Assembly: GCA_020630615.1 (NCBI GenBank)
Contig: JAHDBA010000001.1
Location: 14,838 to 78,837 of the forward strand
Direction: 5' to 3'
Length of the DNA stretch: 64,000 nt
Source: Myxococcota bacterium
GTDB lineage: Bacteria; Myxococcota; UBA727; JAHDBA01
Position 1 is the first letter of the stretch; every line of letters starts with the position of its first letter. Of this stretch, positions 12,687-34,364 are shown piece by piece. The translations under genes and the position numbers were made by a program. The notes beneath the pieces are model-generated. The model made no database searches. It was given only the letters and a program-made list of their open reading frames with translations, and was not told the origin of the DNA.

Positions 12687-14030
12687 ATGGAACTCAAATC
12701 TTTTCTAACCCAGAAGATCACAACTGCGACCCTTGATGGGGAGCTTTCAAGCAATGAGCTTGGTCGAATTGTTGAAGAAGTTGAAACCTTTGCTGCCGAA
12801 AATGGATACTCATTGCGAGAGGTTCATGACGCTTTCATGGAGAATGAAATCCCCATTCTTGAGACGGCCAACTCAACTTCGATTAAGCTTCTCGATCAAA
12901 CTTTGGCAGAGCTTGAACTCGAAATGGGTTCTCTTGCGATGGGGCAACTGCATGCAAGTGTAAATACGACTGAGTTGATTGACGAGTTGAGTCATGCCCC
13001 GACAGAGCATTTAACGTCGATTGCTTATGATGTGTACAGTGATGTCGAGAGTCGTTTTTCGAGTGCTGACGCACGGGCATACTTGGGCTTTCTGATTCAG
13101 AACACACCAGGGTTGCTCGATCGCTTAAATCTGAATGAGCGGGAGTTTTTTGGTGATCTGATGAGTCAAACCAATTCGCATCTCAAAAAGATTGAGGAAA
13201 TTTGGGTTGGCCAGACAGGTGATATTGGACTTATTGATGTGGATCTCAACGGTAAAATTACGTCCGAAGATCTGGCGCTCTATATTGAAAATGGAACTTA
13301 CCAAGTGAAGCCCATTGGCGAGCGTGCAATGGAGTCGCTTAAACTTGCAAAAGCGATCGCAGACGCAGCAGAAACGATGGGCGGTAGTGATGTTGAATTC
13401 ATCGATATTCAATATGTGAGTCGAGATGAATTTTTTTCCGACAAAGCAAGCTATAACTATGGTGGAACAGTACCCAGTGAAGAAGGTGAGAAGCACCTGT
13501 ATTATCGACAACAATTCAATTCCGAGTTTTGGGAGACTCAGGGGGCCTACGCAGGTGTCGTGCGTGAAGATGTTCGACCCTCAGAGGCGATCGATGATAT
13601 CGTCTTAAATGGTTCAGAGTACATGTACGAGTGCGCAACTGCGATGGTTGCGGTGTATTATCTGGCATTAAAAAACCATATGGGAGCTGAAGCTTTTGAT
13701 GAGGCCTTTCAGGGCATGGCATTGTCTGGCTGGTATATGCCGGAGAACATGCGTGAGGTGACGCGAGACGGGGTGCCGAGTGCTCCGGGAGAGCGCGGTT
13801 ACATTGAAAACGATGCAACCTTAGAGGGTGATGCACTTGGCTGGACGGGTGAAAACGTGATTTACGTTGGGAAATCCGATGCGGGTGAGCCGCTCTATTA
13901 TGGTCACCCTTTTGGGCTCTCAACTGAGGAGGAAATTATTTCATTTCTCAAAGAATATTCAGCAGACTCTGGATCGGAACCCCATCTCTTAACAAGGAAG
14001 TACAGACTTGATGGTGCAGCGATTGAGTAG
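12687..14030 (+). CDS. EF-hand / Tgl-type transglutaminase fusion, copy 1
   Basis: The last third (about residues 295-440) matches Bacillus Tgl, the protein-glutamine gamma-glutamyltransferase that crosslinks glutamine to lysine side chains: RPSEAIDDIV, YECATAMVAVYYLAL with the nucleophile at C316 (preceded by E315), GWTGENVIYVG with E389, and YYGHPFGL with H407, matching C116, E187 and H200 of Tgl in order and near-equal spacing. Residues 184-195 (DVDLNGKITSED) are a canonical EF-hand loop (D184, D186, N188, D195). The first 180 residues look helical and begin with a DGELSSNEL segment reminiscent of a TerB or half-EF-hand. No signal peptide is visible, so it is predicted to be cytosolic. Bacillus Tgl is calcium-independent and about 245 residues; this protein nearly doubles that length. 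Calcium control is inference. Confidence 0.8.
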   Translation: MELKSFLTQKITTATLDGELSSNELGRIVEEVETFAAENGYSLREVHDAFMENEIPILETANSTSIKLLDQTLAELELEMGSLAMGQLHASVNTTELIDELSHAPTEHLTSIAYDVYSDVESRFSSADARAYLGFLIQNTPGLLDRLNLNEREFFGDLMSQTNSHLKKIEEIWVGQTGDIGLIDVDLNGKITSEDLALYIENGTYQVKPIGERAMESLKLAKAIADAAETMGGSDVEFIDIQYVSRDEFFSDKASYNYGGTVPSEEGEKHLYYRQQFNSEFWETQGAYAGVVREDVRPSEAIDDIVLNGSEYMYECATAMVAVYYLALKNHMGAEAFDEAFQGMALSGWYMPENMREVTRDGVPSAPGERGYIENDATLEGDALGWTGENVIYVGKSDAGEPLYYGHPFGLSTEEEIISFLKEYSADSGSEPHLLTRKYRLDGAAIE

Positions 14031-14103
14031 TGGTGGCTTCGATCTCAGGTATTTTTTAGTGTCCTCTCACACTTCGTAACATGACAATCGAAAAGGGTTT
14101 TGC

Positions 14104-15447
14104 ATGGACTTAAAATCATTGCTTTCTCAAAAACTTCATCGTGCCACGTTGAATGGTGAGTTGAGCAGTAACGAGCTCGCGAAGATTATGGAAGACGTTG
14201 AGCACGTCGCGGTCGAAGAGGGATATTCAAAACAAGAAGTGTACGATGCCTTCAAGTCGAACACATCAGCTCTACAGAAGTTCGCGAATACCCAATCTCT
14301 TCTTCTATTGGAACAGTTCTTGAGTGAGTTGAATGTAGCGTTGCGGCCTTCGGATACCTACACTTTGAGCGATGGGACAACGCTCGCTGAGTTGGTGACG
14401 ACCATGCGTGAGGTCGACGATGAAAGCATCACGACGCTTCTTTATGATGCCTATGAAGATATGGAAAGCCGCTTTTCGAGTGCTGAAGCGAAAGCATATT
14501 TGAGCTATATCATCTCAAGTTCACCGGACGTTGTCTCTCGGCTGGACCTGGGTGCGCGAGAACTCTTTGGGGATTTAATCCATCAAACAAATGGTCATTT
14601 GCGTAAGATGGAGGAAATCTGGGTTGCCCAAACAGGACATGAAGGTTTGATTGACGTTGATCTCAATGGTGTTATCACTTCTGAAGATCTTGCGCTTTAT
14701 ATTGAAAAGGGGGAAGTGAAAACAGAGTCGATTGGTGAACCTCGCTTGGAGGCCCTGAAGCTTGCAAAAGCGGTTGCTGATGCTGCAGAAACGATGGGTG
14801 GTAGTGATGTGAGTTTTATTGATATCGAATTGATAAAGCGTCGTGAACACCTCCCCGAGATTTGGACCTACCGAAAAATTGGTCGGGTTCGTACCGAAGA
14901 TGGATGGCATCGCGTCTATTCGAGACAAACCTTCAATCGCGATTTTTGGGATGTGAAAGATTCTCATATTGGGCGTGTGCGCGACGGGGTACGACCCTCA
15001 GACGCGATTGACGATATCGTTATCAATGGTGGAGAGTACAAGTACGAGTGTGCGACAGCGATGATGGCGGTCTACTATTTAGCTCTGAAAAACCACATGG
15101 GTGCTGATCGTTTTGATGCTGAGTTTCAAAATTTAGTTCTTGCTGAATGGAGGCGTCCGGCAGAAGTGACAACAGAGCGCTTCGATGAACGCCCAAGCGC
15201 ACCGGGCTCGTATGGATATATTGAGAACGATGCAACTGCGGAAGGCGATGCTTTGGGTTGGACTGGCGAAAACGTGATTTATATTGGCCTGTCCGACCAG
15301 GGAGAACCCTTATACTATGGACATCCTTTTGGGATTTCGACAGCCGATGAGATTATTGATGAGTTGTATCACTACTCCAAACCCAATGCAGATCGCCCCG
15401 ATTTTCTGGAGTTTCATAGCAAGCTCAGTGGGTCAGTCATTCAATGA
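14104..15447 (+). CDS. EF-hand / Tgl-type transglutaminase fusion, copy 2
   Basis: Paralogue of the preceding gene, same length (447 residues) and same domain order. The catalytic residues fall at identical numbers: C316 in YECATAMMAVYY, E389 in GWTGENVIYIG and H407 in YYGHPFGI. The EF-hand loop at 184-195 (DVDLNGVITSED) is also conserved, as are the SRFSSAEAKAYL and GGSDVSFIDIE segments. Divergence is concentrated in the N-terminal 130 residues and the extreme C terminus, suggesting old duplication with retained chemistry and different partners or substrates. The gap of 73 bases between the copies has no terminator, so co-transcription is likely. Both copies seem enzymatically intact. Confidence 0.8.
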   Translation: MDLKSLLSQKLHRATLNGELSSNELAKIMEDVEHVAVEEGYSKQEVYDAFKSNTSALQKFANTQSLLLLEQFLSELNVALRPSDTYTLSDGTTLAELVTTMREVDDESITTLLYDAYEDMESRFSSAEAKAYLSYIISSSPDVVSRLDLGARELFGDLIHQTNGHLRKMEEIWVAQTGHEGLIDVDLNGVITSEDLALYIEKGEVKTESIGEPRLEALKLAKAVADAAETMGGSDVSFIDIELIKRREHLPEIWTYRKIGRVRTEDGWHRVYSRQTFNRDFWDVKDSHIGRVRDGVRPSDAIDDIVINGGEYKYECATAMMAVYYLALKNHMGADRFDAEFQNLVLAEWRRPAEVTTERFDERPSAPGSYGYIENDATAEGDALGWTGENVIYIGLSDQGEPLYYGHPFGISTADEIIDELYHYSKPNADRPDFLEFHSKLSGSVIQ

Positions 15448-15517: not shown

Positions 15518-15711
15518 GGTTTTGGGTGTTGAGGTGCAAGGAACTTGTACCGCCAGGAGATGAGAGCGGTAGTTGGCGTGATTGCGCTAGGTATCTCAGG
15601 GCCCACTTCTTATAGGCCTGTCCTGTGGCCTGTGGGGTTGACGTAACCAGGAGGAGAGAGTCATGTTGCGTTAATGGAGAGCGTCGCTGAGCGGCGCTTT
15701 TCGCTTTTTTT
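15514..15711 (+). ncRNA. Candidate structured RNA with mini-ORF and terminator
   Basis: No protein is encoded here beyond three codons, yet the sequence folds well by eye. Hairpin 1 is 15533-15551 (8 pairs around GAA). Hairpin 2 is 15557-15597 (GAGAT with ATCTC, inner TGGCG with CGCTA). Hairpin 3 is 15602-15636 (CCCAC with GTGGG, inner AGGCC with GGCCT). A possible closing helix joins 15514-15521 with 15645-15652. Its 3' strand overlaps the strong ribosome site AGGAGGAG (15649-15656), which precedes ATG TTG CGT TAA at 15663-15674. AACC in that strand could instead pair with GGTT at 15636-15639. An intrinsic terminator follows. I do not recognise it as 6S RNA, SRP RNA, tmRNA, RNase P or a known riboswitch. 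It could be an orphan sRNA or a riboswitch-like leader. Confidence 0.55.
15680..15711 (+). terminator. Intrinsic terminator of the structured RNA
   Basis: AGCGTCGC-TGA-GCGGCGCT forms an 8-pair stem with a 3-base loop, followed by a T-rich tract at 15699-15711 interrupted by CGC. It ends transcription about 80 bases before lipB. Confidence 0.8.
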
Positions 15712-24970: not shown

Positions 24971-25265
24971 GCCTGAGCACCTCTTAAAAAAAATGTAAAT
25001 ACCGACCACTTTCAAACGATCGATCTGCACACAATTCAGATTAAACAATCGCTAGCGCAAATGTCACGTTCTCGACCGAAAGTTGTCTTAAAGTGAGATG
25101 ACACGAACCAGACCGTGTAGGTGTGCTCCTACCTTTCATGACAGTTTTTCCGTATTTGATCTTTTTGAGACACTTTTCGGTCAACAACTTGCCGAATGGA
25201 CATTCACTTCAATAAGGTGAGAGAGTCTTATTGTTTTCCGCTTTAAGGATCATGGAGGCTTGCGA

Positions 25266-28200
25266 ATGCAGCACAATAAAATGAACAAAAAAAGTATTTT
25301 CTCGACGAGGAATGCACTATTTCCACTCTCGATAATGGCGATCGCATCGCTTGGGTTTTCGGGTTGTAACGTCGAAGAGATCACATCGACTCTCGGACTT
25401 GATGACTGGCGAAGTACAGCTTCAAGTGAAAGTGCGCTCGCCAACATTTCGCCAGACTCGGGTGATTTTGAAGGTGGTACGTGCCCGCAAAGCCCGGGGC
25501 AAATCTCAACCGTCGGATCATGGCAAGGTGAACCCGGTCGATTAAATTACCCGACTGTCGATCTTTATACGACCGACTCGTGTGGCACCAATCCTTACGA
25601 ATTGTCCGATAACGCATATTTGACGACACCGCCTGCGGGGTTTGGAGCTTCCAGCGGAGATCGTTTTGCGGGTGGCCAGGCAACATTTGAAGCCGGTGAG
25701 TGGCGTTTAACGGAAGCCGTTTATGCCCCATTTGACCAACCGATGACAGAGGGATCAAAATATTCTTGTTCTTTTGATCATGCCTCGCTTCAAATTGCAT
25801 CTCCTGCGACGAATTTTAGAAGCGACGCCCTTGATGCGTCGGCATGTCTTTATGCATCGACCGGCCCAATCGATCTCGATGGCACCGAAGTGTGTAGTCT
25901 TGTTGAGGCCGGCACATTAACGCCGATCGTATGCTCGCCGCACGCCGCTTCAGCATCGTACCCATTTTTCTCATGGTCAAGCTTTGATGCTGTATTCGTT
26001 GCGGACCAGAACTACAGTCATCTCGTGGCCTCAGCGAACTGCGCACGTGGTGGTGGGAACCAAGACTTCATGGGTTATTGGGCAGTTGATAATATTCAAT
26101 GTGTTGAAAGCACAGACGAGCCATGTTCTCAAGACCCGGTCAATGGGTCTCTCAATTGCCCCCCGGGGCCGACGTGTAACGACGGCATCTTTAACGGTGA
26201 CGAAAGTAACGTCGACTGCGGCGGCTCATGCGGTGCGTGTGGTGGTGGCACTTGCAATATGGATGCAGACTGCAACGGGACAACATGTAAAGAAGAAACA
26301 TGCACGGGTCATGTTTCTACTTTATGCGAGTCAGACCAAGACTGCACCAGCACAACATACTCACGTTGCGATAATTCTGTTGGTAAGTGTACTCGACCTA
26401 CAAGCTGTAACCCTGGTATCTGTGATGTTTCGTGTCTCGCAGACGATGACTGCGGTGTTGGAGAAATCTGTGCAGGGCAAGAAAGTTGTACACGTAATGT
26501 GTCACAACAGTGTTCAACGGATGCCGAGTGCGAGAGCGCAGGTTCTTATAATATTTGTGACAATGGGTCGGGACATTGTGGCTTGGGCTGCGGCGGTGGA
26601 ACTTGTGTAAATGTTGCCAACGCTGACGGTGAAGGTTGTACTTTTGATTCGGAATGTGCGAGTGGTTTTTGCGCACAGAATGATTGTTCGAATGTTTATG
26701 GTAACGTGTCATGTTCTTTTGATAGCGACTGTAGTACCTTCCGCCCAGTTTGCTCGGAGGCTGACGGTGGTAAATGTGGTTCAAGTTGTACTGCGGGGAT
26801 TTGTGCACCCAACCCGAACGCGCACTGCACGAACGGTGTGCAAGACGAAGACGAAACAGGTGTTGATTGTGGCGGTGCTGATTGTACGGGTTGTGACGAG
26901 TGTCAAGTTGACAGTGAGTGTTCTGCAGGGCAATCATGCAATACAATCTTAAACCCGAACCAGTGCGTAGGGTGTTTTACGAACAGTGACTGTTTTGATG
27001 GCTTGGTTTGTACTTCTGATATTTGCATCGATAACCAGTGCCAAAACCCAACATTGCCGGTAGGGGCCCATTGTATCGATGGCGTTTGTGATGGCGACGG
27101 TTCGTGCCAAGGATGTCTGGTTGACTCAGATTGTGGTGCGGGAGAACTTTGTAGTGGCAATGAATGTGTTGAGTGTACGATAGATTCTCAGTGCCCGGAT
27201 GATGGTAACGAGTGTACCGCCTCGGTATGCATCGCAAACACATGTGAGAATAAACCTGTTGATAATGGACAGGTCTGTGCGGCGGGTGTCTGTGGCGATG
27301 GCCAATGTGTCGGTTGCAACACTCCAGCCGATTGTGGTGTGAACCCAACGTGTGGCGAGTTCACGTGTAACGCTGATCAAGAATGTGAGCTCATCTTTGC
27401 GAACCCGGGTTTGACAGGCACAGCTTGTGTGACACCGAATATGTGCGATGCGAGTCAGAACTGTGTTGAGTGTATCAGTGACGCAAACTGTCCAGGTTCT
27501 GAGGTTTGCGATGCGGGCGTTTGTGTTGAGTGTTCAGCAAACGACCAATGCGGCTCGGTGACCGAATGTGCAGCGCCATTTTGCACAGCAACAAATACCT
27601 GTGATGCCGGCCTATTGCCTGCTGGAACAACATGTACCGGTGGCGTATGCGACGGTGCGAATAACTGTGTTGGTTGTCTCGATAACTTCGATTGTGCAGG
27701 CAACCCAAATGGTGAGATGTGCGACCCAAGTACACGGCAATGTGTTGCATGTTTGAATGCTTCAGACTGTAGCGACGACTTTGAATGTACAACGGATCAA
27801 TGCATTGCAGGATCATGTGTGAACACAACCCAAACCATTAATACACCGTGTGCTGCAGGTGCGGGCGTATGCAATGGCAACACATGTCAAGAATGTAACG
27901 AAGACTCACATTGTATCGGCAACGCCAATGGTGAAGTCTGCGACACGACATCTGGAACATGTGTTGGATGTGTTGATGATGGGCAATGTGAAGATGGCGA
28001 CCCATGTACAACAAATACATGCAATGCAGGAACATGTGCAAGCGTGACAGAAACGGGCGGCTTATGTGAGTGTTTAAGCGCATCAGATTGTCAAGCGGCA
28101 GATGTATGTTCAGACGTGGCATGTGTTGCGAATAGCTGTCAATATTCGAATGTTGCTGCCGGTAGCAACGACGCTGGGGAATGCCCGAATGTTTGTGATG

Positions 28201-31200
28201 GCAGCGGTGAATGTGTCGAATGTCTAAGCAACAGTGAGTGTGCTGCCAATGGTGAGGTTTGCGACACGATTAACAATGTATGTGTAGCCTGTAACTCGGT
28301 GGCAGACTGCGGTGCGGCCGATACATGTCACGTGATGACGTGTAGCGCGAACGAATGTGTTCAAGTGCCAGAGCAAGAGGGCGAAACCTGTACAGGTGGA
28401 GTGTGTAGTGATGTTCAAACCTGTGTTGAGTGTGTAGACGACACGCAATGTGCTTCAGGTTTGTTCTGTGGTGCAATGAACACTTGTGTCGCTTGTGAAA
28501 GTAATGCTCAGTGCGACGACGGGATTTCATGTACCAGCGATGTTTGTAACGAAGCGGGCGTTTGTTCGAATATCGTAAACACTGCTGGAACTCAATGTAT
28601 TGATGGAGCCGGAGAAGCTGGCGTTTGTTTGGGTGATGATTGTGTAGAATGCGGCAGTGATTCAGACTGTTCGAATGGAGAACTCTGCAATCTTAGCAAC
28701 AATACCTGCCAAGAATGCCTTTCGGATGTCAACTGTGAAGACGGTAACGAATGTACCGAAGACGTCTGTAATGGTGGAACATGTTCGAATCTACCTACAA
28801 CGGGTGACACATGTAGTGGTAGCGGGGTGTGTAATAGTGCCGCGCAATGTGTTGGTTGTTTAACTGCTGCGGATTGTGGCTCTGGTGATTCATGCGAGGC
28901 TGTGAGTTGTGTGAATAGCGTCTGTGAAACCAATAATATTCCAGTAGGCGGTTCGGATATTCGCTGTGATACATCGACTCCACTTTGTGACGGCTCTGGT
29001 ATTTGTGTTGAATGCAATGTCGGAAGTGATTGTGCTTCTGGGCTATGTGTTGAAAACGCTTGTGTTGAATGTGTCGCTGCTTCGGACTGTGGAGAAAATC
29101 CAAACGATTGTTTCCGTAACGAGTGTCAGCTGAACACCTGTATTGCGGTACATGAAGGTGCGGGTGCTCAGTGTGATTTTGCGCAAGGCGAGATCTGTGC
29201 CAATGACAGCGATTCAACTTGTGTCGAATGTTTAGAAGATGCACATTGTTTGAACGCAGAACAACCTTTATGTTCACCAAGCAATACGTGTGTAGCCTGT
29301 TTGACTGACTCGCAATGCAATGATGCCAATGCGTGTACCACTGATTTGTGCTCAAATAACGTATGCGTGAACGATGCGACGGCTATTGGTAGTGATTGTT
29401 CAGGTGGTGTTTGTAACGGTGCAGGCACATGCGAAATCTGTAACGTCGATCAAGACTGTGTTGACCTCAACCCTTCAAATCCAGTGTGTCTTATCGATGC
29501 GGTTAATGGTAACTCATGCGTTGAATGCAACGAAGACACAATCTGCGATGATGGTAACGACTGTACGATTAATGCATGCAATAGAGCATCAAATACGTGT
29601 GATGTCGCACCGGTTGCCGCGGGTACAGATACGCCTTCAGGTGTTGCGAACGGTGACGGTCAGTGTGTTCAGTGCCTTGGTAATGAGGATTGTGCGACAG
29701 GGTTCTGTGATATCGCGAACAACGTCTGTACGGGTTGTCTGGCAGACACGGATTGCCCCGTAGCAAACCAATGCCAAACCTCTTCATGTATCGGTAGCGG
29801 TGCTTCACAAGCGTGTGCTCCGGTTAGCAATCTTCCAAATGGAAGCCTTTGCACGGATGGCGGCAATGCTTGTGTTGAAGGGCAATGTGAAGAGTGTTTC
29901 GTGGACAACGATTGTGGCGTCGGTGAAGTTTGTAACCCAAGTACCTTCACATGTATGGGTTGCTTTGAGGACACACATTGTGGCGGCAGCACCCCATTCT
30001 GCGATGTTGTAAACAACGTTTGTGCATCGTGCCTTGCGGACTCCGATTGTAGCGACAGCAACGAATGTACTGCCGACCAGTGTGTGAACGGGACTTGCAC
30101 TTTTGAAAGTCTCAATGCGGGTGATGCGTGTTCAGCAGGTGTATGTGACGGCGCCGAAAGTGCACCAACATGCATTGAATGTCTCGGAAACACACATTGC
30201 GGTGGTAGTGAACCCTTCTGTGTCAATGACGAATGTGTGGCATGTCAAGGCGATGAGGATTGCCCGGCTAGCCTCGAGTGCTTCGAAAAACTTTGTCAAG
30301 ATGGTGGCTGCAGTGCAGATGTACCCATGGTGCAGGGAGAATCATGTGTGATGTCGACCGGCCAAATCGGTTTTTGTGATGGTGCAGGAACATGTAACCC
30401 ATGTAATGTCGACGCCGATTGTCAGAACGGACAGTTCTGTTCGGGGCAAAACATATGCGTGGGATGCTTAAACGATACGCACTGCCCTGACGATGGAAAT
30501 GCATGTACAAGTGAAAGCTGCGTCAATGGTTCGTGCGAAAATGCAAATCTTCCTGCAGGTACACAAAGTGCAGAAGGATTTGCAGATGGCAACGGTCAAT
30601 GTGTGAGCTGCCTTTCCGATGCGAATTGCAATGGCGCCTCAGTATGTAACCCAGCAAACAATGAGTGTACGGGCTGTGTTGACGATAGCGACTGCGGTGG
30701 TTTGAGCCCAATTTGTTCAAGCGGTACCTGTGTTGCATGTGACGCAGACAGCGATTGCAATGATGGCAACGATTGTACGGACGATACGTGTGTTTCAAAC
30801 ACGTGTTCGTTCACCAATACTCCTTCCGGAACATCTGTCCCTGGGGGCCTCGTTGCGGACGGTGATGGACATTGTGTCGTATGTGCATCAAGCAGTGACT
30901 GCAACGCGGGAGCGCCAATCTGCGATCTGGCAACCAACCAATGCGTCGGTTGTTTGAGCAACTCAGATTGTAATGACGACGGGAACGAATGTACGATTGC
31001 TGTCTGTAGCGAAGCAGGTGTTTGTACTCAAAATGATGTTGTCGTTGCAAGCCCATGTGGAGACGGAAACCTCTGCGACGGGACAGGCGGATGTGTTGAA
31101 TGTCTGGGCGCATCCGATTGCGATAGCGATATCTGTGATGCGGTATCCAATACATGTTCTCAGGCGACGTGTAGCGACGGTGTTCAGAATGGTGCAGAGA

Positions 31201-34200
31201 GCGGCGTCGATTGTGGCGGTCCGCTTTGCCCACAATGCCCTGTGAACCCGAGTTGTAATGCTTCGAACTCTGACTGTAACGTGGGTAGCGACTGTACCAG
31301 TGGTGTTTGTGAGACGAATGCTGGCTGTTGCGTTGCACCAACATGTAGCGATGGTGTTCAAAATCAAGACGAGACCGATATTGATTGTGGTGGCGTTTGC
31401 GGTGCGACCTGTCAAGTTGACGAAGGTTGTGATGATGCGAACGATTGCTTGACTCAAAGCTGTGATGCTACGAGTGGACTCTGCGTTCCATCGGCATGCA
31501 ATGACGGTGTGATGAACGGTCAAGAGACCGACATCGATTGCGGTGGCCCAACATGTGACAGTTGTGATGATGGCAAAGATTGCTTGGAAAACAGCGATTG
31601 TGATTCGCTTTCATGCCCGGCTTCAAACACGTGCGTTACAGAAACATGTACGGACGGCATAATGAATGGTGACGAGACCGATACGGATTGTGGTGGAGGA
31701 ACATGCCCAGATTGTATTATCGGTGAGGTCTGTGCTGATAACTCAGATTGCGTCACAAACCTTTGTGTTGAAAATGAGTGTGTTTCACCGACCTGTGATG
31801 ATGGTAATCAAAACGGTCTTGAAACCGACGTGGATTGTGGTGGGCCCGACTGTCAAGGTTGTGAGGTTGATGAACAATGCGACGTTGCTTCCGACTGTCT
31901 TTCATACCAGTGCGGTAGTGATGGACTTTGTGATGAGCCGAACTGCAACGATGGCTTCATGAACGGTAACGAGACGGATGTCGATTGTGGTGGTGAAGAT
32001 TGTGCACCTTGTAATGTGGACCAAGGCTGTGTTGTCGCGAGGGATTGTCAGACAGAAATCTGTACGAATGATACCTGTGCTGCTCCAAGTTGTTTTGATG
32101 GTATGGAGAATGGTGATGAAACAGGAGTGGATTGCGGTGGGGCAGACTGTTCTGCGTGTCCTAGTGATTCAACGTGCCATAGTGGTGCTCCAAACTGTTC
32201 CGTTGATAGCGACTGCGTATCTGGCAACTGTGATGCAGGCTGTTGTGTGGATTCATCCTGTAGTGATGGAATACAAAATGGCGGTGAAAGCGATGTCGAC
32301 TGTGGAAACGAATGTGGAAGCACATGTGAGCCGACCGAAGGTTGTGATTCCGACGATGACTGTACGACTCTACTATGTCACGAGCCAAGCGGTCGCTGCG
32401 TTGCACCGAGTTGTAGTGACGGTCAGAAAAACCAGGGTGAGTTTGAGGTTGATTGCGGTGGGCCGAACTGTGATGCATGTCCGGGAGGTAGCGGGCCGAC
32501 CGGTTGCACTGAGGCGCCTGTGATGACTGCAGATTGTGTGAGCTTCCTTGCTCAATGTGATGAGTGTCTTGCACCAACGTGTTCGGACGGAATTCAGAAT
32601 CAAGACGAGACGGACGAAGATTGTGGTGGGGTGTGTGGAAACACCTGTGAAATCGGCGAAATGTGTGATGCAAATGCTGACTGCACAAGCAACGATTGTG
32701 ACGCGGAAACCGGAGTATGTACTCAGGCTACATGTACAGATACGCTGTTAAACAACAGTGAGACAGGCGTTGATTGTGGCGGTGGCGACTGCCCACGTTG
32801 TGACAACTACATCCCATGTGAAGACGGGGTACGAGACTGTATTAGTGGCATCTGTAGAAACCTTGAAGGCTTTGGTGGTCGTGTTTGTGTACCACCGACC
32901 TGTACGGACGGTGTACGCAATCAAGGTGAGACTGATGTTATGGCAACTGGTGGAGAATGCGGCGGACCCAATTGTCAACCGTGCCCAACAGGCGACAGCT
33001 GTCTTCTTGATAGAGATTGTGTCTCAGAAATCTGTGATGTTGCAAATGGTTTTGTGTGTATTGATCCTGTCGAACCTCCGCCACCAGCAGGAAACTGCTT
33101 TGACGGTATCCAGAACAACGATGAAGAAGGCGTCGACTGCGGTGGGTCTTGTGGAGATATCGCAGAATGTTGTGAAAACGGTATTCTCGATGGCGATGAA
33201 AGTGCGATTGACCGAGGCGGACGTTGTGGCTCAACCTGTCAGTTGAATGACCCATGTGTTGGAAACGCCGACTGTCGCGGTGACCTCTTCTGTTACCGTT
33301 CGGATACGAACATGCTCCTTGGAACATGTACGCCGCTTTGTCCTGGTGCACCGAACCCATTTGACTGCGATAGTGATGGATTCTGCAACAACGATGAGTG
33401 GATGGATGGTACGAACGCCTGTATGGGCGGTGGTGAAGAAGGTTCGAATGACGATTCGTGGCCAGATCTTGATGGCGATGATTTGCCAAACTGGAACGAC
33501 CCCGATGATGACGGCGATACGATCCCAACTTCACAAGAGCATGAAGAAGGTAGCGAGCATGGGCTTGACCAAGATAACGATGGCGACAACTGCTACTATG
33601 ATCTTGAGTCCGACGGAGATGGGATCCCAGATGCAGATGAACCCAATGACGAGAACAACGATGGCGTCCCGGACTATCTACAGAGTAATGGTGGGTGCGA
33701 CCAGTTGATTGAGTTTGTTGATTGCCCAGCAACGCTCTATTGTGGCGGAAACTACCGATGTGGTGTTCGCGTCAGAAACGTGGGTAATGGACAATGCTAC
33801 TCCAATGTTTCGATTTCGGTGACTCTACCCAATGGTGTCATATTCGATGAGTTCACGGGTGCAGGTTGGACATGCTCTGAGACGGGTGGTGTAGTCAGTT
33901 GTGACAACGCGGCAAATCTCAACCCTGCTGGTGATGTGAGTGGTGAAATTGTGTTCACGGTGGACCCTCAATCCGACGTCTGTCCGAATGAGAGTCCGAC
34001 ACAAGGGTCCTTTGGCGGAGACATCACGCCAGTTGCGCCAGACTCGAATCCAAACAACGACAATGCAGGGCATACTTGTGAGATCCCTGTAACCGTTGAT
34101 GGGGACAACGATGGTGTCGATGACAATGCAGACAACTGCCCAGAAGTCGAAAACCCAGGTCAAGAAGATGCGAATGGTTACACGGATGGTGATGGTGCAG

Positions 34201-34364
34201 GTGATGCCTGTGAAGATGTCAACAGTTATCGAAATGGTAATGAAGAGGATATCCAAGTCATCGGTGGTCGCCTCTTTGGGTGTAGTGCAACGAGTGCATC
34301 AGACTTTGGGATGATCGCTGGCCTCTTGGGACTGGCTCTGCTTCGAAGGCGCCGCCGCTCCTAA
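25266..34364 (+). CDS. Giant Cys-rich lipoprotein with MYXO-CTERM-like tail
   Basis: About 3,032 residues from ATG 25266 (GGAGG at 25254-25258). Order: lipoprotein signal (IASLGFSGC, Cys near residue 34); a roughly 250-residue N-terminal domain with few Cys; a first CxDGxxNGxE repeat (about residue 302); a very long array of Cys-rich units of about 60-70 residues (CVxCxxDxxC...GxxC...CVxC pattern, about 540-1960); 14 more CxDGxxNGxEtdvDCGG repeats (about 1970-2660); Asp-rich thrombospondin-type-3-like segments (about 2700-2800); a DUF11-like beta domain (about 2820-2940); another Asp-rich repeat (DGDNDGVDDNADNC); and a C-terminal Gly-Cys, hydrophobic helix and five Arg residues. Probably a disulfide-rigid, calcium-binding cell-surface filament or adhesin. 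Two anchoring signals in one chain are unusual. Confidence 0.88.
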   Translation: MQHNKMNKKSIFSTRNALFPLSIMAIASLGFSGCNVEEITSTLGLDDWRSTASSESALANISPDSGDFEGGTCPQSPGQISTVGSWQGEPGRLNYPTVDLYTTDSCGTNPYELSDNAYLTTPPAGFGASSGDRFAGGQATFEAGEWRLTEAVYAPFDQPMTEGSKYSCSFDHASLQIASPATNFRSDALDASACLYASTGPIDLDGTEVCSLVEAGTLTPIVCSPHAASASYPFFSWSSFDAVFVADQNYSHLVASANCARGGGNQDFMGYWAVDNIQCVESTDEPCSQDPVNGSLNCPPGPTCNDGIFNGDESNVDCGGSCGACGGGTCNMDADCNGTTCKEETCTGHVSTLCESDQDCTSTTYSRCDNSVGKCTRPTSCNPGICDVSCLADDDCGVGEICAGQESCTRNVSQQCSTDAECESAGSYNICDNGSGHCGLGCGGGTCVNVANADGEGCTFDSECASGFCAQNDCSNVYGNVSCSFDSDCSTFRPVCSEADGGKCGSSCTAGICAPNPNAHCTNGVQDEDETGVDCGGADCTGCDECQVDSECSAGQSCNTILNPNQCVGCFTNSDCFDGLVCTSDICIDNQCQNPTLPVGAHCIDGVCDGDGSCQGCLVDSDCGAGELCSGNECVECTIDSQCPDDGNECTASVCIANTCENKPVDNGQVCAAGVCGDGQCVGCNTPADCGVNPTCGEFTCNADQECELIFANPGLTGTACVTPNMCDASQNCVECISDANCPGSEVCDAGVCVECSANDQCGSVTECAAPFCTATNTCDAGLLPAGTTCTGGVCDGANNCVGCLDNFDCAGNPNGEMCDPSTRQCVACLNASDCSDDFECTTDQCIAGSCVNTTQTINTPCAAGAGVCNGNTCQECNEDSHCIGNANGEVCDTTSGTCVGCVDDGQCEDGDPCTTNTCNAGTCASVTETGGLCECLSASDCQAADVCSDVACVANSCQYSNVAAGSNDAGECPNVCDGSGECVECLSNSECAANGEVCDTINNVCVACNSVADCGAADTCHVMTCSANECVQVPEQEGETCTGGVCSDVQTCVECVDDTQCASGLFCGAMNTCVACESNAQCDDGISCTSDVCNEAGVCSNIVNTAGTQCIDGAGEAGVCLGDDCVECGSDSDCSNGELCNLSNNTCQECLSDVNCEDGNECTEDVCNGGTCSNLPTTGDTCSGSGVCNSAAQCVGCLTAADCGSGDSCEAVSCVNSVCETNNIPVGGSDIRCDTSTPLCDGSGICVECNVGSDCASGLCVENACVECVAASDCGENPNDCFRNECQLNTCIAVHEGAGAQCDFAQGEICANDSDSTCVECLEDAHCLNAEQPLCSPSNTCVACLTDSQCNDANACTTDLCSNNVCVNDATAIGSDCSGGVCNGAGTCEICNVDQDCVDLNPSNPVCLIDAVNGNSCVECNEDTICDDGNDCTINACNRASNTCDVAPVAAGTDTPSGVANGDGQCVQCLGNEDCATGFCDIANNVCTGCLADTDCPVANQCQTSSCIGSGASQACAPVSNLPNGSLCTDGGNACVEGQCEECFVDNDCGVGEVCNPSTFTCMGCFEDTHCGGSTPFCDVVNNVCASCLADSDCSDSNECTADQCVNGTCTFESLNAGDACSAGVCDGAESAPTCIECLGNTHCGGSEPFCVNDECVACQGDEDCPASLECFEKLCQDGGCSADVPMVQGESCVMSTGQIGFCDGAGTCNPCNVDADCQNGQFCSGQNICVGCLNDTHCPDDGNACTSESCVNGSCENANLPAGTQSAEGFADGNGQCVSCLSDANCNGASVCNPANNECTGCVDDSDCGGLSPICSSGTCVACDADSDCNDGNDCTDDTCVSNTCSFTNTPSGTSVPGGLVADGDGHCVVCASSSDCNAGAPICDLATNQCVGCLSNSDCNDDGNECTIAVCSEAGVCTQNDVVVASPCGDGNLCDGTGGCVECLGASDCDSDICDAVSNTCSQATCSDGVQNGAESGVDCGGPLCPQCPVNPSCNASNSDCNVGSDCTSGVCETNAGCCVAPTCSDGVQNQDETDIDCGGVCGATCQVDEGCDDANDCLTQSCDATSGLCVPSACNDGVMNGQETDIDCGGPTCDSCDDGKDCLENSDCDSLSCPASNTCVTETCTDGIMNGDETDTDCGGGTCPDCIIGEVCADNSDCVTNLCVENECVSPTCDDGNQNGLETDVDCGGPDCQGCEVDEQCDVASDCLSYQCGSDGLCDEPNCNDGFMNGNETDVDCGGEDCAPCNVDQGCVVARDCQTEICTNDTCAAPSCFDGMENGDETGVDCGGADCSACPSDSTCHSGAPNCSVDSDCVSGNCDAGCCVDSSCSDGIQNGGESDVDCGNECGSTCEPTEGCDSDDDCTTLLCHEPSGRCVAPSCSDGQKNQGEFEVDCGGPNCDACPGGSGPTGCTEAPVMTADCVSFLAQCDECLAPTCSDGIQNQDETDEDCGGVCGNTCEIGEMCDANADCTSNDCDAETGVCTQATCTDTLLNNSETGVDCGGGDCPRCDNYIPCEDGVRDCISGICRNLEGFGGRVCVPPTCTDGVRNQGETDVMATGGECGGPNCQPCPTGDSCLLDRDCVSEICDVANGFVCIDPVEPPPPAGNCFDGIQNNDEEGVDCGGSCGDIAECCENGILDGDESAIDRGGRCGSTCQLNDPCVGNADCRGDLFCYRSDTNMLLGTCTPLCPGAPNPFDCDSDGFCNNDEWMDGTNACMGGGEEGSNDDSWPDLDGDDLPNWNDPDDDGDTIPTSQEHEEGSEHGLDQDNDGDNCYYDLESDGDGIPDADEPNDENNDGVPDYLQSNGGCDQLIEFVDCPATLYCGGNYRCGVRVRNVGNGQCYSNVSISVTLPNGVIFDEFTGAGWTCSETGGVVSCDNAANLNPAGDVSGEIVFTVDPQSDVCPNESPTQGSFGGDITPVAPDSNPNNDNAGHTCEIPVTVDGDNDGVDDNADNCPEVENPGQEDANGYTDGDGAGDACEDVNSYRNGNEEDIQVIGGRLFGCSATSASDFGMIAGLLGLALLRRRRRS
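26900..31150 (+). repeat. Coding repeats: long array of Cys-rich units
   Basis: Within the giant gene, roughly twenty units of about 200 bases recur. Each encodes a CVECxxDxxC start, a GxxC step, a DxNxCTxDxC step and a GxxCxGGVCDGxGxC end. Units vary in length and in one or two Cys positions, so they look like old internal duplications rather than recent tandem copies. Confidence 0.75.
31168..33240 (+). repeat. Coding repeats: 14 copies of a CxDGxxNGxE / DCGG unit
   Basis: Copies start near 31168, 31348, 31495, 31648, 31792, 31945, 32089, 32257, 32410, 32578, 32731, 32905, 33097 and 33175, spaced about 80-190 bases and mostly near 150. Two more copies lie at about 26173 and 26824. The copy at 32905 has a short insertion before CGG, and the last copy has Cys replaced by Arg (IDRGG). 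Confidence 0.8.

Follow-up and report, generated by a model that had tools for sequence, protein, structure and literature searches.

Two adjacent genes in a 64,000-nucleotide stretch of Myxococcota DNA (contig JAHDBA010000001.1, positions 14,838 to 78,837, here termed the window) encode proteins which, on our best reading, are Tgl-type enzymes of a Myxococcota subfamily in which a calcium site was either gained or retained, the site most likely serving to stabilise or switch the enzyme. The overall explanation, to which we assign a probability of about 0.55, is that these are Tgl-type enzymes equipped with a calcium loop, which would most likely require available calcium to be stable or active. 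The features of the gene pair are collected in Table 1.

Table 1. Features of the transglutaminase gene pair, with positions counted in the window.
Feature	Position	Strand	Remarks
TGL-type transglutaminase 1 (P0001, 447 aa)	12687..14030	+	helical N-terminal region, Ca-type loop (predicted), TGL catalytic domain
TGL-type transglutaminase 2 (P0002, 447 aa)	14104..15447	+	tandem paralogue of P0001
Dx[DN]xDG loop of P0001, residues 184-195, DVDLNGKITSED	13236..13271	+	
Dx[DN]xDG loop of P0002, residues 184-195, DVDLNGVITSED	14653..14688	+	
TGL catalytic domain of P0001, residues 217-435 (C316, E389, H407)	13335..13991	+	
TGL catalytic domain of P0002, residues 218-436	14755..15411	+	
Terminator-like hairpin, 13 pairs and T tail, downstream of the pair	15675..15703	+	consensus match only

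Assignment to the Tgl type

In both proteins the Pfam profile of the TGL family (PF20085) scores far above its cut-off of 23.7 bits (128.3 and 128.8 bits, E about 1e-37), and a sequence search of the PDB with P0001 yielded only two relatives, 7c9j (E 5.7e-21) and the B. subtilis Tgl structure 4p8i (E 9.6e-17). The same two entries were matched in Foldseek searches by the predicted model of P0001 (4p8i: E 1e-13, TMt 0.74; 7c9j: E 8e-13, TMt 0.84) and likewise by that of the homologue L035. Scores against the NCBIfam equivalog of the spore-coat Tgl (NF002869) stay below its cut-off (116.6 and 120.3 bits vs 307). In B. subtilis Tgl, the catalytic dyad is formed by Cys116 and Glu187, with Glu115 as stand-in and His200 on the substrate side (PMC6490927). 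In the alignment with 4p8i, Cys116, Glu115, Glu187 and His200 correspond to C316, E315, E389 and H407 of P0001, of which C316, E389 and H407 do not vary among the 22 TGLs that were aligned. We consider it nearly certain that P0001 and P0002 share TGL chemistry, with the crosslinking of Gln to Lys as their predicted activity. Outside bacteria, the structure search with P0001 also returned a Tgl-like protein of the giant virus Terrestrivirus (E 8e-5) and a weaker match in Yasminevirus.

The products of the two tandem genes are 55% identical, and their divergence (NG86) amounts to a dN of 0.41 with a dS saturated at 4.6, which, judged from the coding sequences, marks the pair as old and retained. 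No hydrophobic signal segment was found in either protein (max KD19 within the first 40 residues ≤0.18), and a signal peptide or membrane segment was not apparent in a hydropathy check of the loop-bearing subfamily described below. The hairpin downstream of the pair is one of five terminator-like sites in the region, where 3.9 would be expected by chance, and a promoter scan returned no more than chance. The Bacillus Tgl-type assignment and core fold, the catalytic Cys, Glu and His, the duplication and the absence of a signal peptide had all been proposed in an earlier, sequence-only reading of this DNA, with which the profile, model, alignment and hydropathy results agree.

A conserved loop ahead of the catalytic core

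Residues 184-195, at the same numbers in both proteins, read D-V-D-L-N-G-x-I-T-S-E-D and thus present the ligands at positions 1, 3, 5 and 12 and the glycine at position 6 of a 12-residue EF-type loop (DVDLNGKITSED and DVDLNGVITSED). The pattern exceeds what chance would give: it appeared anywhere in the sequence in 73 of 20,000 shuffles of P0001, and of the 42 frames of at least 200 residues in the window, none besides the pair contains it. Its conservation provides the stronger evidence, with the loop present in 11 Myxococcota proteins, comprising the pair, two paralogues from the same genome and seven relatives. The paralogues are encoded by two further TGL genes, one on another contig (L001, loop DFDLSGDLSDGD) and one a broken copy near a contig end (L004, loop DINLDGQITEDD). 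Among the relatives, the loop reads DSNFDGKIDAKD in L027/L005, DANFDGKLDEND in L035 and L044, DSDKNKQLNGGD in L042/L009, DIDGDGAPNEAD in L008 and, in the more divergent L013 and L014, DSNNNGKLDDDD and DVNHDGDLNDSD, respectively.

The distance from the start of the loop to the invariant core residue A227 was measured in nine proteins; it is 39 residues in L008 and 43-45 in the other eight. Only four of the 78 fully occupied columns that precede the core in six divergent members are conserved, and these are columns 184, 186, 188 and 195, which represent ligand positions 1, 3, 5 and 12 and are either identical or restricted to D, N and S, in an N-terminal region that is overall about 16% identical. 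Position 12 is an Asp in every member; at this position of the loop, Asp usually confers weaker calcium binding than Glu. For the loop-bearing subfamily the sequences strongly suggest a calcium site, and we regard calcium binding by this predicted site as likely.

Two genes near the broken paralogue in the same genome are recorded here as separate observations. About 4.5 kb away lies a gene for a 1043-residue surface-type protein rich in DxDxDG repeats (L047:9345-12476), and beside the broken copy, L047:15124-16185 encodes a protein that matches DUF4347 only weakly, short of the cut-off, and in which a caspase-like GHG...DGC pattern can be made out by eye.

Structural setting of the loop

In the AlphaFold2 model of P0001 (mean pLDDT 85.6), a strand comprising residues 181-183 leads into the loop, which is followed by the hairpin strands 196-201 and 204-209, and the same order is found in the model of the L035 homologue (mean pLDDT 79.0; strand 244-246, loop, strands 259-263 and 269-273), which is 23% identical to P0001. 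In both models, in which AlphaFold cannot place metals, the loop hairpin precedes the first core helix, and the loop sits where the helical region meets the core. The Pfam profile EF-hand_1 scores 10.8 bits in P0001 at a cut-off of 25.4, and the best loop match among the other members scanned is to Dockerin_1 in L027 (17.7 bits vs 22.9). The strand-loop-strand arrangement in two models together with the unreached EF-hand cut-offs leads us to reject an EF-hand fold as improbable. As modelled, the loop is probably a non-EF calcium loop of the Dx[DN]xDG type, whose motif and later acidic ligand are both kept among the relatives. Rigden et al. 2011 describe such loops outside EF-hands as recurrent and probably convergent, with immaterial flanking secondary structure and a later acidic residue that completes the ligands (PMC3123361).

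The sequence-only reading had described a canonical EF-hand loop and a helical N-terminal region ahead of the catalytic domain. The 12-residue ligand pattern at 184-195 stands, as does the helical character of the N-terminal region in the P0001 model, whereas the designation as canonical EF-hand is not confirmed in view of the Asp at position 12, the lack of a helix-loop-helix in both models and the Pfam scores. The helical region matches no Pfam family and, in searches with the two models, no PDB fold with confidence. At its beginning, residues 13-24 of P0001 (12723-12758, TATLDGELSSNE) are part of a helix-loop-helix that resembles a half-degenerate EF-hand without ligands 1 and 3.

Phylogeny and distribution

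In a tree built from the catalytic core only, a single branch sets the loop-bearing proteins apart (89/90; 92/91 once the longest branches are removed). Their nearest relatives are the short Myxococcota TGLs of the sister clade (L018-L021, L006 and L007). All six have the homologous loop, which is longer by two residues in L006 and unchanged in length in the other five. These loops keep D1 and D12 and, in most rows, carry Gly at position 3 and Pro or Lys at position 5 (e.g. DAGMPGKVDPAD). No such loop was seen in the Bacillota TGLs. The ligands may either have been gained once or been lost in the sister clade, as judged from the core tree, and upon addition of the very divergent L010 and L022, which have no ligands, the count on the tree rises to two changes. 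The residue after His407 is a Pro in loop-bearing proteins and a Gly in the sister clade and Bacillota; since the ligand-less L010 and L022 contain a Pro as well, this residue follows the clade and not the loop.

A TGL domain is found in 20 of the 195 Myxococcota genomes examined. One Myxococcota genome (G052) encodes three TGL proteins with long N-terminal regions in frames of about 1,560-1,750 residues (L012, L015 and L017), and in a myxobacterial protein (L023) the TGL domain follows a region resembling, by eye, the toxin-associated DUF4157 type. The phage records contained no match to the proteins, IMG/VR returned none with this query, and we find no support for a phage origin. A single plasmid match, in Niallia, covers the TGL core only.

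Proposed role of calcium

By homology, Cys316 would accept the acyl group of a glutamine and hand it from this side chain to a lysine amine, with assistance by Glu389 (or Glu315) and His407. The loop, which is part of a beta hairpin and lies about 43 residues ahead of A227 in the first core helix, would bind one calcium via the side chains at positions 1, 3, 5 and 12, and the bound ion would order the hairpin at its junction with the core. Most likely, the enzyme would then be stable or active only with calcium, which it might encounter when the envelope is damaged, on lysis or once released into surroundings rich in calcium, and the crosslinker would be harmless in the low-calcium cytosol. 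Since the Bacillus enzyme is made in active form (PMC6490927), a calcium switch would solve what Bacillus solves by localisation. Taken separately, a requirement of calcium for activity and a purely structural calcium each appear to us somewhat short of an even chance, and the choice between a switch and a structural pin is about even. It is doubtful that the Myxococcota Tgl lineage has, independently of animal transglutaminases, evolved its own calcium switch, in the form of a calcium-triggered crosslinker kept ready in the cytosol. TGL enzymes that carry an EF-hand or a calcium loop did not turn up in a literature search reaching few subscription papers.

Genomic neighbourhood and alternative explanations

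Upstream of the pair, at a distance of about 5 kb, we find a type I restriction system accompanied by a KilA-N/PDC-S22 protein. A ParE-like toxin is encoded upstream as well, and genes for DUF2779 and DUF2130 proteins are located between the restriction system and the pair. The downstream side contains a gene of the lipoyl ligase family and, for the most part, housekeeping genes. The segment 74-7787 of the window contains the specificity and R subunits of the restriction system, and its KilA-N protein matches PADLOC PDC-S22 with an E of 2.6e-104. Further downstream, at 25260-34364, a 3034-residue protein shows weak matches to TraA outer-membrane exchange, Cys-rich repeat and MYXO-CTERM families. 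The last of these fit the assignment to Myxococcota, which is also indicated by where related records come from.

Calcium might be bound by the loop permanently, as a structural pin that holds the helical N-terminal part to the core, with a cellular activity that is not regulated by calcium. We would give this possibility clearly less than even odds, although it fits the location of the loop at the junction in both models, the lack of a secretion or signal sequence and the view in Rigden et al. 2011 that several non-EF Dx[DN]xDG loops are structural (PMC3123361). The sister clade has the loop without the ligands, which implies that the fold does not depend on the metal. Permanent filling in the cytosol would also demand high affinity at submicromolar calcium, against which the Asp at position 12 argues. 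That the turn is possible metal-free is shown by the ligand-poor loop of the same clade, and the loop of the pair could be an ordinary acidic turn without metal; this is unlikely in light of the conservation of exactly the four side-chain ligand positions, as D, N or S only, within an N-terminal region of such low identity.

As an exported or injected effector, the crosslinker would be activated outside the producer, where calcium is high, and fusions of TGL domains to long exported-looking or DUF4157-like regions, identified by eye, exist in L012, L015 and L023. The loop-bearing subfamily, however, has neither a signal peptide nor linked secretion genes, which makes such a function quite improbable, and an injected effector was rejected as no T6SS VipA or phage-sheath family was found in the genome (93% complete). 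The cytosolic defence against phage or damage by a calcium-gated enzyme, favoured in the earlier reading, is consistent with the missing signal peptide and takes its basis from the restriction system upstream, from which the pair is, however, separated by the DUF2779 and DUF2130 genes. With neighbours typed by Pfam and PADLOC and the neighbourhoods of relatives checked, nothing beyond this proximity connects the pair to defence: the pair is unmatched in PADLOC, no match turned up in phage records or, with this query, in IMG/VR, and the relatives reside next to FA_hydroxylase/APH/P450, AAA_33/NHL/OmpA/M48, FMN oxidoreductase or GST genes, in examined neighbourhoods that are unrelated and of which none is a defence locus. 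We thus abandon this role as very unlikely and retain the Tgl-type enzyme with a predicted calcium loop as preferred reading.

Comparison with known systems

The pair resembles B. subtilis Tgl and the Geobacillus transglutaminase (PF20085; 4p8i, 7c9j) in its catalytic fold, the Cys, Glu and His residues and the preceding Glu115, and it shares with Bacillus Tgl a tryptophan (Trp149, W349 in the pair) and the lack of a signal peptide. Unlike the pair, Bacillus Tgl is short, without loop and helical N-terminal region, has a Gly instead of a Pro after the catalytic-site His, and is already active when made (PMC6490927), as opposed to the possible support or switching by calcium in the pair. The short Myxococcota TGLs share with the pair the core and the homologous loop before it, but lack ligands 3 and 5 and the long helical N-terminal region.

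In its linear motif and later acidic ligand, the loop is similar to the non-EF Dx[DN]xDG loops of Rigden et al. 2011, where, in the available part, varied flanking secondary structure and homologues with and without the motif are described, as in the TGL loop, and a transglutaminase context is not seen (PMC3123361). In LysGH15, a papain-like CHAP lysin, a 12-residue loop binds calcium through D45, D47 and D56 and switches activity, which is abolished by mutation of Asp to Ala (PMC4022735). As in the pair, this D-x-D ... D loop with Asp at position 12 belongs to a papain-like protein and lies outside a true EF-hand (PMC4022735), although LysGH15 is a peptidoglycan hydrolase whose loop lies within the catalytic domain, around its catalytic Cys, whereas the loop of the pair precedes the core. 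By analogy, LysGH15 serves as precedent that such a 12-residue loop can bind calcium and switch an enzyme.

A calcium-switchable bacterial crosslinker, if present in this subfamily, would be a possible source for biotechnology. The well-studied bacterial transglutaminases are calcium-independent and the animal ones calcium-controlled. Animal transglutaminases differ from the Tgl type in fold, domains and calcium sites. Their members TG2 and factor XIII catalyse the same reaction that is predicted for the pair, in a manner that is calcium-dependent there (PMC6265872) and possibly also in the pair. The loop-bearing subfamily and a sister clade that is short of two ligands offer a ready comparison for the origin of calcium control in crosslinking enzymes.
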